From Candidatus Woesearchaeota archaeon (lineage in GTDB: Archaea > Nanobdellota > Nanobdellia > Woesearchaeales > UBA10216), in the NCBI GenBank assembly GCA_016188155.1, contig JACPIH010000016.1:1-48266 (forward strand): DNA of 48,266 nucleotides. Reading direction: 5' to 3'. The notes beneath the pieces were generated by a model that saw nothing but the letters and a program-made list of their open reading frames with translations, searched no databases and was not told the DNA's origin. How positions within the stretch are numbered: the stretch's first letter is position 1; each line of letters starts with the position of its first letter. The position numbers were made by a program, and so were the translations under genes. Shown here piece after piece: positions 2,309-47,168 of this stretch.

Positions 2309-4099
2309 ATGAAACCGGCTGATTACTGTTTTGAGGTTTCCTGGGAAGTCTGCAACAAGGTAGGCGGCATTTATACTGTCCTGAAGAGCAAGGCTCCTGT
2401 GATGAAGGAGCAGTATGGCGATTCGTATTTTGCTGTTGGGCCTTACTTTGTCAGTAAGGTAAGTGGTGAGTTTAGCGAAAAGGTTCCTCCCGAGTGGCTC
2501 GGCAGCGTGTTCGAGAGGCTGAAAGGCGAAGGCTTAATCTGCCATTACGGCACCTGGCTCATTGAGTCAGAGCCCGATGCTGTCCTGATAGATTTCTCAA
2601 CATTTGCTGCGAGGAAAAATGACATAAAGAGAGAGTTGTGGGACAACTACAAGATTGACTCCCTCAATACGCAATACTTTGATTACGACGAGCCTGTGAT
2701 TTGGGCTTATGCTTCGGGAAAGTTTCTGGAGGCCGTTGCCGCTTTAAGCCATGACAAGAAAGTTGTCGCACATTTTCATGAGTGGCTTGCCGCAGCCGGT
2801 CTTCTTTACCTTCACAGCAGGAAAGCGAAGGTTGCAACTGTTTTCACTACCCACGCTACAACGCTTGGCAGGACGATGACTGGCTCCAGTAAGGACATTT
2901 ACGAGTGCGTCACGTGCATTGTTGACCCTGACCAGGAGGCTTACAGGCTTGGCGTTCACACGAAGCACCAGACAGAAGTAGCCGCCGCAAACGCTGCTGA
3001 TGTTTTTTCAACAGTCAGCGACATCACTGCAATGGAGGCAGAGCATTTCCTGAAAAAGGCCCCGGACATTATTTTGCATAATGGCCTTAACATGCGCAAC
3101 TTCCCGACATTTGAAGAGGCATCAGTAAGGCACAGGCAGCTGAAGAGGAAAATAAAGGAGTTTATGATTTATTATTTCTTCCCATACTACACCTTTGACC
3201 TTGAGGAGACGCTTTATTATTTCCTTTCTGCAAGGTATGAGTTACACAACAAAGGCATTGATGTCTTTATCAGGGCGTTGGGCGAGCTTAACAGTGCATT
3301 GAAGCAGTCAAGGTCGAAGAGGACTGTTGTTGCTTTCCTGTGGGTGCCTGCCAACATTCGCGGAATAAAGCGCGAGCTCCTGGAAAGCAGGACCTTTTAC
3401 CAGGATATCAGGGACAGCATTGTTGATAGTATTGAGATGGTTAAGGATAACCTGGTTATTGACGTTGTTGCCCAGCGAAAAGTGACAGATACAGACCTTC
3501 TCTCAGCGCAGACATTGTTTGAGCTTAAGAGAAAGGTGATTAAGTTCAAGAAAAGCGGAAACCCGCCTTTGTCTACCCATGACCTCTACAATTATGAATC
3601 TGACCCAATCCTGAACGCCTGCAGGGCAGCGGGCTTGGATAATTCTGCTGAGGACAGGGTTAAGGTCGTGTTTTACCCGATTTACCTTAACGGAGCTGAC
3701 GGCTTGCTTGACCTTAACTATTACGAGAGCATGCAGGGCGCCCATTTGGGGGTTTTCCCAAGCATTTACGAGCCATGGGGGTACACGCCCCTTGAGGCGG
3801 CAGCTTTGGGCGTTTGCTCTGTTACAACAGACCTCTCTGGCTTTGGCAAGTACATAGCTGCCCATTCTGCGCAGAAAAAGTTTCCTGGCGTTTTCATAGT
3901 CAGGCGCTCAGAAACCAACGATGATGATTTCACGAAAAGCCTTTCCAGCATACTGCTCACGTTTGCCAACTACTCGAATGAGGAGCGCATAAAGAACAAG
4001 ATTGAGGCCAAGCACGTCTCATCGCTTGCTGACTGGAGGTTCATGGTAAAGCAGTACATGGCAGCCCACCAGATTGCTGTCGGAAAGCGCTTCGGATAA
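2309..4099 (+). CDS. GT3 family glycogen synthase
   Basis: This 596-residue protein belongs to the eukaryotic/animal-type GT3 glycogen synthases, not the bacterial GT5 GlgA. Near the start it has FEVSWEVCNKVGGIYTVL, around residue 185 FTTHATTLGR, and near residue 490 FPSIYEPWGYTPLEAA; all are GT3 hallmarks. It elongates alpha-1,4-glucan from UDP- or ADP-glucose in the cytoplasm. ATG 2309 is chosen because GT3 N-termini start just before the FEVSWEV strand; an in-frame TTG at 2282 would add nine residues and cannot be excluded. It is first in an operon with GalT (17-nt gap) and the debranching enzyme, so synthesis and trimming of glycogen appear co-expressed. Confidence 0.92.
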   Translation: MKPADYCFEVSWEVCNKVGGIYTVLKSKAPVMKEQYGDSYFAVGPYFVSKVSGEFSEKVPPEWLGSVFERLKGEGLICHYGTWLIESEPDAVLIDFSTFAARKNDIKRELWDNYKIDSLNTQYFDYDEPVIWAYASGKFLEAVAALSHDKKVVAHFHEWLAAAGLLYLHSRKAKVATVFTTHATTLGRTMTGSSKDIYECVTCIVDPDQEAYRLGVHTKHQTEVAAANAADVFSTVSDITAMEAEHFLKKAPDIILHNGLNMRNFPTFEEASVRHRQLKRKIKEFMIYYFFPYYTFDLEETLYYFLSARYELHNKGIDVFIRALGELNSALKQSRSKRTVVAFLWVPANIRGIKRELLESRTFYQDIRDSIVDSIEMVKDNLVIDVVAQRKVTDTDLLSAQTLFELKRKVIKFKKSGNPPLSTHDLYNYESDPILNACRAAGLDNSAEDRVKVVFYPIYLNGADGLLDLNYYESMQGAHLGVFPSIYEPWGYTPLEAAALGVCSVTTDLSGFGKYIAAHSAQKKFPGVFIVRRSETNDDDFTKSLSSILLTFANYSNEERIKNKIEAKHVSSLADWRFMVKQYMAAHQIAVGKRFG

Positions 4100-23299: not shown

Positions 23300-23425
23300 T
23301 AGCCCCGCCCGGATTCGAACCGGGGTTCCCAGCTCTCTTCATGTGGATTTCTTGGTTGAGCTTCTTTGCTTGCCAAAGAAGGTCATGCCAAAGGCTGGTG
23401 TGTTTGACCGCTACACAACGGGGCT
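23300..23425 (-). tRNA. tRNA-Gln(UUG) with a 53-nt intron at 37/38
   Basis: On the minus strand the gene reads AGCCCCG (acceptor), a D-arm GTGTAGCGGTCAAACAC, anticodon stem CCAGC, then C-T-TTG-G. After the intron come A, GCTGG, a GAAC variable loop, T-arm CCCGG-TTCGAAT-CCGGG, acceptor CGGGGCT and discriminator A. The anticodon TTG reads Gln. The mature tRNA is 73 nt without CCA. The 53-nt intron lies at 23335-23387 after position 37, the canonical archaeal site. Confidence 0.93.
23335..23387 (-). other. tRNA-Gln intron with canonical bulge-helix-bulge
   Basis: The splice site folds as a standard BHB. Exon CTTT (32-35) pairs with intron GAAG, the bulges are GG^C and AG^A, and the flanking helix ATG pairs with CAT. 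This fixes the ends of the intron exactly. Confidence 0.85.
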
Positions 23426-45714: not shown

Positions 45715-46278
45715 ATGGCTGATAAAGAATTTGACGCTATAGTTGTTCTTGGCGCAGGAATCACTGCGAAGGGCAACATCACAAGAGTTGCAAAATCAAG
45801 AATGGACAGGGCAATCGAGCTTTACAGGAAAGGGGCTGCCCAGAGAATAATTGTGACAGGCAAAAACGAAGCCAGTGTAATGAGGCATTACGCTATTAGG
45901 AAAGGCGTCAAAGCAGCTGACGTGCTGGTGGAATCCAAAGCAAGGGACACAATAGGCAATGCGTTCTTCACTTGCAAGAAGTTTTTGCTCGCCAACAGCT
46001 GGCGAAGAATCGTTGTTGTGACGTCCATATTCCACATTTCTCGAGCAAAGCTTGTTTTCAAGAAGGTGCTCGGCAAGTCTTACGATGTCCGGTTTGTGCC
46101 TTCTGTGCGCGTTTTATCCGAAAAGGCTTTTAGGGAAAAGCTTAAGCTTGAGAAAGGGCTCCTGTTGCTTATGAAATTCCTTAGCACCTTAATTGCTGAT
46201 GGCGACTTGGAAGCCATTGAGAACTTTTTAAGAAACAGCCCAATTTACAAAGTTCACGAAGGAGCTTCTGGGCACTAA
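45715..46278 (+). CDS. YdcF-like DUF218 family protein
   Basis: The 187-residue protein has the DUF218/YdcF pattern: DAIVVLGAGITAKGN at the N-terminus, a helix with SRMDRAIELYRKGAAQRIIVTGK, ESKARDTIGNAFF near residue 78 and VVVTSIFHISRAKLVFKKVL near residue 102, where the conserved His/Arg lie. Bacterial members (YdcF, ElyC) act in envelope or vancomycin-type functions, but their activities are poorly known. No transmembrane segment is seen here. The gene follows the epimerase by 7 nt, and its stop overlaps the convergent endonuclease V gene by 4 nt. Confidence 0.82.
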   Translation: MADKEFDAIVVLGAGITAKGNITRVAKSRMDRAIELYRKGAAQRIIVTGKNEASVMRHYAIRKGVKAADVLVESKARDTIGNAFFTCKKFLLANSWRRIVVVTSIFHISRAKLVFKKVLGKSYDVRFVPSVRVLSEKAFREKLKLEKGLLLLMKFLSTLIADGDLEAIENFLRNSPIYKVHEGASGH

Positions 46279-46928
46279 GCTTTTTCGTTAACCTTTCTCG
46301 CCGCCTTCTCCATCTCCTTCCTCGCCTTGTCAGCTAATCTGTGAGCAAGGTGCAGCGGTTCAGGAAGCTTGTGAGGCGGCTTTGTTGTTTTCTGCACCAC
46401 TTCCATGGCTGTCTCAAGGCTTACCCTGTGGCCGACAGAAATGTAAATAGGCTTGGCATGCTCCTTTGCCTTGAACTCTGCCCCAATTATATCCTTCCCG
46501 ACTTTTATGTTGCCTGCCTCGTCTTCCTCCCCCAGCAGCCGCGTCTTAGCCACTCCGATTGTTGGCTGGTCAAGCTCAACTCCCAGCTGCGAAGCTAAGC
46601 CGCACCTGAGCGGATGAAGTATGCCATTCCCGTCAACAAGTAAAACGTCAGGCTTGTTTTTCAGCTTTGAGAATGCTTCTTTTATTGCTTTACCCTCGCG
46701 GTAATACAGGAGCCCGGGCATGTAGGGAAAGTCGTTCTCAACAGCAATCGTTTGTTTCTCTATAATTTTGAATTTATCGTCACAAACTACAATTGCAGCA
46801 ATAACTGTATTGTTGACGTAAGCACAGTCGCAGCCGCCAAAAGTCTTTAGCTCGCCATGCTCATCTGTTGTAATGACCTTGCGCGCTGCTGCCAGCTGCT
46901 CCTCTTTTAGCCGTTCAATGTCCATCAT
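46275..46928 (-). CDS. nfi: Endonuclease V
   Basis: The 217-residue enzyme has the family motifs GGCDCAYVNNTVIAAIVV (metal Asp), FPYMPGLLYYREGKAI, PDVLLVDGNGILHPLRCG near residue 105 (catalytic Asp), TIGVAKTRLLG and VGHRVSLETA. It nicks DNA (or RNA) at inosine to start repair of deaminated adenine. ATG 46928 lies only 3 nt after the discriminator base of tRNA-Val. An in-frame extension upstream to 47162 exists but would translate the tRNA gene and is rejected. tRNA and nfi are probably one transcript. Confidence 0.93.
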   Translation of the reverse strand: MMDIERLKEEQLAAARKVITTDEHGELKTFGGCDCAYVNNTVIAAIVVCDDKFKIIEKQTIAVENDFPYMPGLLYYREGKAIKEAFSKLKNKPDVLLVDGNGILHPLRCGLASQLGVELDQPTIGVAKTRLLGEEDEAGNIKVGKDIIGAEFKAKEHAKPIYISVGHRVSLETAMEVVQKTTKPPHKLPEPLHLAHRLADKARKEMEKAARKVNEKA

Positions 46929-46931
46929 GAG

Positions 46932-47059
46932 TGGGCCCGGCCAGACTTTCGTAGCCTTTTCCCCCAGGGCTTTTGTGAGCCGCTGCGAACAAAAGGGCTG
47001 TTCGAACTGGCGACATCTACCCTGTGAAGGTAGCGTCATAACCACTAGACCACAGGCCC
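46932..47059 (-). tRNA. tRNA-Val(CAC) interrupted in the T-loop
   Basis: On the minus strand: acceptor GGGCCTG, D-arm GTCTAGTGGTTATGAC, anticodon stem CTACC/GGTAG with loop TTCACAG (anticodon CAC, Val), variable ATGTC, T-stem GCCAG, then TTCGAA. A 55-nt insertion separates this from T, CTGGC and the 3' acceptor CGGGCCC plus A. The acceptor pairs fully (one G-U) and the T-stem pairs fully, so the split halves belong together. The mature tRNA is 73 nt without CCA. The 3' end lies 3 nt before the endonuclease V start codon. Confidence 0.9.
46946..47000 (-). other. tRNA-Val intron at position 59/60 (T-loop)
   Basis: The 55-nt insertion has a bulge-helix-bulge at its ends. Exon TTCG (54-57) pairs with intron CGAA, the bulges are AA^C and AG^T, and AGCC-C-TTTT pairs with AAAAGGCT as the inner helix with one extra A. 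Its core, CCCTTTTG-T-TCGC-N4-GCTCACAAAAGC, resembles the minus strand at about 23539-23567. Confidence 0.85.
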
Positions 47060-47145
47060 GTAGCGGCATGGCTGCGGCTGCAAATTTAAAAAAGTTTCTG
47101 CGGCATATCTGTTGATGGCTATTGTAGTCCCAAATCATAGAAACA

Positions 47146-47153
47146 TTTAAATA
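47146..47153 (+). promoter_or_regulatory. Putative TATA box of the Fic gene
   Basis: TTTAAATA is centred about 27 nt before ATG 47177. The first copy of the 16-bp repeat (47153-47168) sits between TATA and the predicted start site, a position where a bound repressor would block transcription. Confidence 0.55.
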
Positions 47154-47168
47154 TGTAGTCACCTAAAC
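47153..47168 (+). repeat. 16-bp direct repeat, left copy
   Basis: ATGTAGTCACCTAAAC, which recurs with one change at 48128-48143. A shorter relative, TGTAGTCCC, lies at 47123-47131. Confidence 0.7.

Follow-up and report, generated by a model that had tools for sequence, protein, structure and literature searches.

Introduction

Archaeal tRNA introns bounded by a bulge-helix-bulge (BHB) motif occur at noncanonical positions, including the site between nucleotides 59 and 60 of the T-loop, and have been reviewed (PMC4090602; PMC6379350). The tRNA-Val(CAC) gene described here agrees with these cases in intron position, in the BHB motif, in the requirement for the endonuclease EndA and in the co-existence of other introns in one tRNA; it differs in that the host is a groundwater member of the Woesearchaeota and that half of the 59/60 introns share a single core. 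Transposed tRNA introns have been reported in the Thermoproteales by Fujishima et al. 2010, as that work is cited in PMC4090602 and PMC4033280. The arrangement is alike in that similar introns occupy different tRNAs of related genomes and are patchily present. The lineage is unrelated, and in the present case a dispersed repeat of the same layout also lies outside tRNA genes. For the best-studied case of tRNA intron transposition the mechanism is described as unknown (PMC4090602). In Caldiarchaeum, the gain of a tRNA intron has been ascribed to a mobile element (PMC3293823), and a mobile element is likewise proposed below, but that case concerns a single tRNA and an insertion of 1.9 kb that carries a recombinase-like gene, whereas hairpins of ~50 nt are found at many tRNAs here.

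The dispersed hairpins resemble REP/MITE-type elements in being imperfect palindromes of 33–50 nt that are mostly intergenic, present in many copies and restricted to a genus. They differ by a strong link to tRNA genes, by a splice-competent subfamily and by the failure to find a Y1 (REP) transposase in the host genome. Eukaryotic introner elements are repeat families whose copies act as introns; they are spliceosomal and reside in mRNA genes, and the likeness, repeat copies serving as introns, is an analogy only. If a mobile hairpin does generate the tRNA introns described below, archaea would have their own equivalent of introner elements, and their gain of tRNA introns would have a concrete source.

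The intron in tRNA-Val(CAC) is itself of a known kind, while its tie to a dispersed repeat appears to be new. This tie bears on how archaeal tRNA introns spread and hints at where they come from. In the literature searched on tRNA introns and palindromic repeats of Woesearchaeota and DPANN archaea, no paper treats this tie, and none combines a genus-wide DPANN family of T-loop introns with a dispersed hairpin that shares its layout; the original Thermoproteales description, outside that literature, may contain a similar remark.

An intron in the T-loop of tRNA-Val(CAC)

The window, meaning the whole stretch of DNA that was analysed (48,266 nucleotides, contig JACPIH010000016.1), derives from an uncultured archaeon. 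The tRNA-Val(CAC) gene lies on the minus strand at 47059–46932, nucleotide 1 of the tRNA being 47059, and reads GGGCCTG...GCCAGTTCGAA[55 nt]TCTGGCCGGGCCCA. Exon 1 (47001–47059, 59 nt) supplies positions 1–59, with the CAC anticodon at 47026–47024, both as located by ARAGORN on the spliced sequence. Exon 2 (46933–46945) supplies position 60, the 3′ T-stem and the 3′ acceptor strand and is followed by the discriminator A at 46932. The 55-nt intron occupies 46946–47000, between positions 59 and 60, and the exons form a complete tRNA only after its removal.

A sequence-only reading of the window had placed a 55-nt insert at this site, and its coordinates were right: excision of 47000–46946 yields a 72-mer that ARAGORN calls as tRNA-Val(cac), and the uncut 127-mer precursor gives no tRNA call. 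That reading had also warned that the tRNA is lost when the intron is missed, which was borne out by ARAGORN and by Rfam at its gathering score, neither of which reported any tRNA in the whole window. The Rfam tRNA model reached 27.4 bits on the uncut locus, against a gathering score of 29, and did so by forcing the acceptor stem onto intron bases. A catalytic intron was considered and rejected, as cmscan at E values up to 10 returned no match to group I or group II models and only the tRNA model. When the mature tRNA was used as a query against the genome, only this gene and an intact Val(GAC) matched; no second Val(CAC) was found in this metagenome-assembled genome, which is 88.7% complete. 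Common tRNA callers thus overlook tRNA genes in these archaea; gene counts may be skewed as a result, and neighbouring genes mis-called.

Structure of the splice junction and the splicing machinery

The BHB motif spans 46940–47011 on the minus strand. In the minimum-free-energy fold of the precursor, the T-stem is followed by a 3-nt AGU bulge, a 4-bp UUCG/CGAA helix, an AAC opposite one A, and an AGCC/GGCU helix; the fold has z = −2.92, and none of 200 shuffled sequences was as stable. Cuts are predicted at TTCGAA^C and AAAG^T. The motif had been described as near-ideal, with a TTCG/CGAA helix and two 3-nt bulges. The 4-bp helix and the AGU bulge hold, but the AAC side is really a 3x1 internal loop, with AAC opposite a single A, so that the motif is near-canonical and not perfect.

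Genomes were scanned for T-stems that are split at 59/60 and could form a BHB, and ARAGORN was then applied to the spliced sequences. With the demand for the BHB helix dropped, all four pairs were still present in 48 of the 59 tRNA-confirmed candidates, compared with ~2% by chance; four of the candidates without a helix proved to be intact tRNAs in which a second T-stem had arisen by chance, and these were discarded. Across 38 distinct junctions, position 57 and its intron partner formed A-U in 24, G-C in 10 and other combinations in 4, and the covariation score exceeded that of 500 out of 500 shuffles and of all slid controls. Helix retention and covariation together support the BHB as a real, selected splice motif. 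The CGAA present at both intron ends was also considered as a target-site duplication; this was ruled out because tRNAs with TTCA end their introns with TGAA, so that the two ends are complementary and not repeated.

A single EndA gene encoding 198 amino acids was identified in the host genome, with matches to the catalytic-domain and N-terminal families, and it is of the alpha type. A second EndA structural subunit was not detected in the host genome, where a divergent beta subunit could escape detection, and one strong PF01974 gene was present in 11 of the 12 genomes searched. The best solved match is the alpha subunit of the broad-specificity Nanoarchaeum equitans enzyme (3iey_A). Relaxed splice motifs are associated with (alpha-beta)2 and epsilon2 enzymes and canonical motifs with alpha4 enzymes (PMC6379350; PMC4033280). 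Since the Val junction is near canonical, an alpha4 enzyme could suffice. The sequence-only reading had proposed that an endonuclease of broad specificity is needed, which may not be the case for this junction. It had also pointed to the EndA subunit architecture; the single alpha-type gene has a subunit of a broad-specificity enzyme as its nearest solved relative, and more than one architecture may fit. The shorter introns of class II tRNAs have weaker helices than the Val junction.

A gene for the RNA ligase RtcB is present in the host genome. As a separate observation, RtcB matches on contig C15 of G000 (2594–3918) fall in two pieces 32 nt apart, and model positions 1–25 lie in a different open frame from the rest, a candidate frameshift or insertion.

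A tRNA intron family particular to one genus

The Val intron belongs to a family of tRNA introns that is peculiar to this genus of Woesearchaeota. This family, and its resemblance to a dispersed hairpin repeat, is the main point of the analysis and was absent from the sequence-only reading, which had set such introns chiefly among hyperthermophilic Crenarchaeota; the host is instead, as judged by its closest named relatives, a groundwater woesearchaeote of the DPANN group. All genomes compared are incomplete metagenome-assembled genomes.

Ten tRNAs with predicted 59/60 introns were found in the 1.08-Mb host genome. ARAGORN labels them Tyr, His, Pro, Ala(GGC), Trp and Val(CAC), plus four class II or odd calls (Leu or Ile), the class II identities being uncertain. 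Loci fetched from relatives contributed 41 further distinct cases. The same scan with ARAGORN gave no case in the reversed or the complemented genome, with 304 candidates each.

About half of the 59/60 introns, the Val intron included, have a common core, CAGCCCTTTT-hairpin-AAAAGCCCTGGGGGAAAACGGCT, with the layout CAG-CCC-TTTT-loop-AAAA-GCC-CTG-GGGG-AAAACG. A core pattern assigned 26 of the 51 introns to class 3 and 6 to class 2. In the Val intron the class 3 element, CAGCCCTTTT-hairpin-AAAAGCCCTGGGGGAAAAGG, occupies 46955–47000 on the minus strand and scores 60.3 bits (E 5e-12) with covariance model R2, this copy being itself among the 12 training rows. The arms of the core covary (CAG/CTG, CAA/TTG and AAG/CTT; GCC with GGGG and GCG with GCGG).

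The Val intron has long identical stretches in common with introns of other tRNAs in the same genome, and near-identical introns in tRNAs of different identity were seen when the comparison was extended across the genus. With one mismatch allowed, the 16-mer GCCCTGGGGGAAAACG occurred 14 times in five of the eight genomes of the genus, almost always in T-loops of different tRNAs, and was absent from 11 other genomes of the family and from the reversed control. Core copies were found in T-loops of Val, Tyr, Ala, Lys, Ser, His, Trp, Asn, Gln, Pro and other tRNAs. In one tRNA of G005 (Pro by eye) the anticodon loop contains a core copy, and a variant of the core is present at 59/60; one class 3 copy (C14) is found immediately beside, and not within, an intact tRNA-Gly. 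The longer introns (Trp and Pro in the host genome, Lys and Ser in G004) resemble two elements joined tail to tail.

Considering the exons, the junction and the family together, we regard tRNA-Val(CAC) as a functional gene carrying a 59/60 BHB intron that belongs to this family, with a probability of roughly 0.8. The intron is presumably spliced in vivo.

Some further copies were noted in passing. Tandem arrays of the element tail (GGCTGGCGGAAAAC / GACTGGTGGGAAAC repeats) adjoin a class 3 hairpin at L221 and L222, and the class 3 copy at L205 has the direct repeat GAAGAATAGCA on both sides, perhaps a duplication. In G029, from another family of the order, weaker matches to the intron-core model occur at L192, L199, L206 and L213, at least one of them apparently outside a tRNA.

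A dispersed hairpin repeat with the same layout

A compact repeat with the layout NRA-CC(C)-TTTT-loop-AAAA-GG(G)-TYN-ATC(C)-AAAAACG was found at 63 loci in the host genome; a plain-pattern search gave 78 matches, some overlapping, compared with 5 in each control. Its arms covary as well (TGA/TCA, CAA/TTG, CGA/TCG, AAA/TTT, TAA/TTA, GAA/TTC and AGA/TCT). Covariance model R1 gave 8–128 matches in every genome of the genus and none in four genomes from other genera of the family; of eight genomes that represent other families of the order, two had a few matches. Hairpins of classes 1 and 2 lie between genes, beside tRNAs and also within tRNA introns. In the host genome, 21 of the 63 loci overlap a tRNA gene or lie no more than 120 nt from one, compared with 4.4 expected from intergenic space (P ~1e-9), where the tRNA list was found in part through the elements and a few R1 training copies lie in tRNA introns.

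Class 2 hairpins, with GC for GG and an ACC tail, link the compact form to the intron core. On the basis of layout and these intermediate classes, and not of high identity, we read the core as a putative member of the same hairpin superfamily, which would imply common descent of core and repeat. From the distribution of the copies we infer that the repeat is mobile and that machinery for its movement exists. REP/RAYT elements were considered as an identity for the repeat: the hairpins fit, but no Y1 transposase (PF01797) gene was found in the host genome, as far as it is complete (88.7%). No consistent target-site duplication was seen by eye at the repeat copies.

Comparison of the tRNA-Val locus among relatives

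The syntenic partner of tRNA-Val(CAC) is an endonuclease V gene (46275–46928, minus strand; Pfam PF04493, E 3e-55). Its open reading frame, 46275–47162, extends through the tRNA, and the suspicion that endonuclease V is over-called there was well founded: judged from the domain match and from relatives, the true start is most likely the ATG at 46928. This start is 3 nt after the discriminator base, so that 3′ processing of the tRNA would yield an almost leaderless mRNA.

The tRNA lies directly upstream of endonuclease V in the host genome, G001, G005, G007, G008 and G010. The family intron is present at this locus in the host genome and in G007, and is absent from G001, G005 and G008. Val(CAC) of G002 also lacks the family intron, its endonuclease V neighbour being out of view, and G010, from another genus, has an unrelated 27-nt intron at 59/60 of Val(CAC). 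A single-gene EndA tree groups the host genome with G007 and G001; with this grouping, the pattern could be accounted for either by a single gain in the common ancestor of the host genome and G007 or by loss of the intron from G001.

The orthologous intron of G007 differs in length and keeps the same splice ends, which argues against the idea that the Val locus is a dead tRNA gene broken by a repeat insertion. In favour of that idea, the insert does contain a repeat-like element, and another valine tRNA, Val(GAC), is intact. The exons, however, show no defect, the precursor forms a BHB that covaries among family members, no other Val(CAC) was found, and ten tRNAs of the genome have the same arrangement; we consider a dead gene very improbable.

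A compact hairpin lies between tRNA-Val and endonuclease V in G005 (L117) and G001 (L127), both without the intron, and is missing from the host genome (46929–46932 of the window) and from G007. The 3′ flank of tRNA-Val is thus a filled/empty pair for the dispersed element. Presence or absence at one and the same flank speaks against the hairpins being transcription terminators or RNA-processing signals around tRNA genes that the introns merely resemble. Such a role would account for the clustering of copies beside tRNA genes and for the T-runs they hold, but the hairpins vary in orientation and in distance with respect to the genes on either side and are sharply restricted to the genus within its family, and we judge a signal function unlikely.

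Proposed origin of the intron family

Our preferred account, put forward tentatively, is that a genus-specific mobile hairpin repeat generates the tRNA introns. Hairpin elements would most likely insert into tRNA genes or next to them, and those copies that reach a T-loop or an anticodon loop would persist as BHB introns, because a 3′ end matched to the exon forms the BHB and allows the copy to be spliced out with little harm. The folded precursor would be cut by EndA at the two predicted sites, and RtcB would join the tRNA halves and probably circularise the intron. That core and repeat are linked through layout and intermediate classes, and not through high identity, counts against a repeat origin, as do the failure to find a Y1 transposase and the lack of a clear target-site duplication.

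The near confinement of class 3 copies to tRNA genes, at BHB-compatible sites, also fits copying from tRNA to tRNA without a dispersed repeat. The excised intron could then have been reverse-spliced into another tRNA, reverse-transcribed and recombined into the genome, or the conserved T-arms could have exchanged introns by gene conversion; the dispersed hairpins would either have no relation to the introns or have inserted secondarily into older ones. As this reading would have it, the BHB 3′ end is matched to the T-loop of its host, and similar introns are found across diverse tRNAs in Thermoproteales, by a mechanism that is unknown (PMC4090602; PMC4033280). Hairpins of the same layout (classes 1 and 2) nevertheless occur between genes, beside tRNAs and inside tRNA introns, the class 3 copy next to tRNA-Gly lies outside the gene, and intermediate sequence classes exist. 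We therefore hold spread among tRNAs as a credible second choice after generation by the mobile hairpin. With the same intron in different tRNAs, a filled/empty locus and a possible source repeat, the spread is testable by strain comparison.

Additional tRNA introns in the window and in relatives

The window contains a second intron-bearing tRNA at 23300–23425 on the minus strand, read as tRNA-Gln(TTG) with an anticodon-loop intron and missed in the default ARAGORN run. Within this intron, the dispersed element is represented by a class 2 copy at 23344–23388 (model R1, E 0.006), with the hairpin TGACCTTCTTTGGCAAGCAAAGAAGCTCAACCAAGAAATCC. A further intron near the D-arm (about position 24–26) is apparent in tRNA-Val(CAC) of G007, G001 and G002 (L172, L127 and L126) and is absent from that of the host genome. 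On contig C19 of G000, positions 1560–1745 (L042) comprise a T-arm and a 3′ acceptor-like half, together with a class 3 element and, in inverted orientation, a compact one, with no recognisable 5′ tRNA half, and may represent a split tRNA or a remnant.
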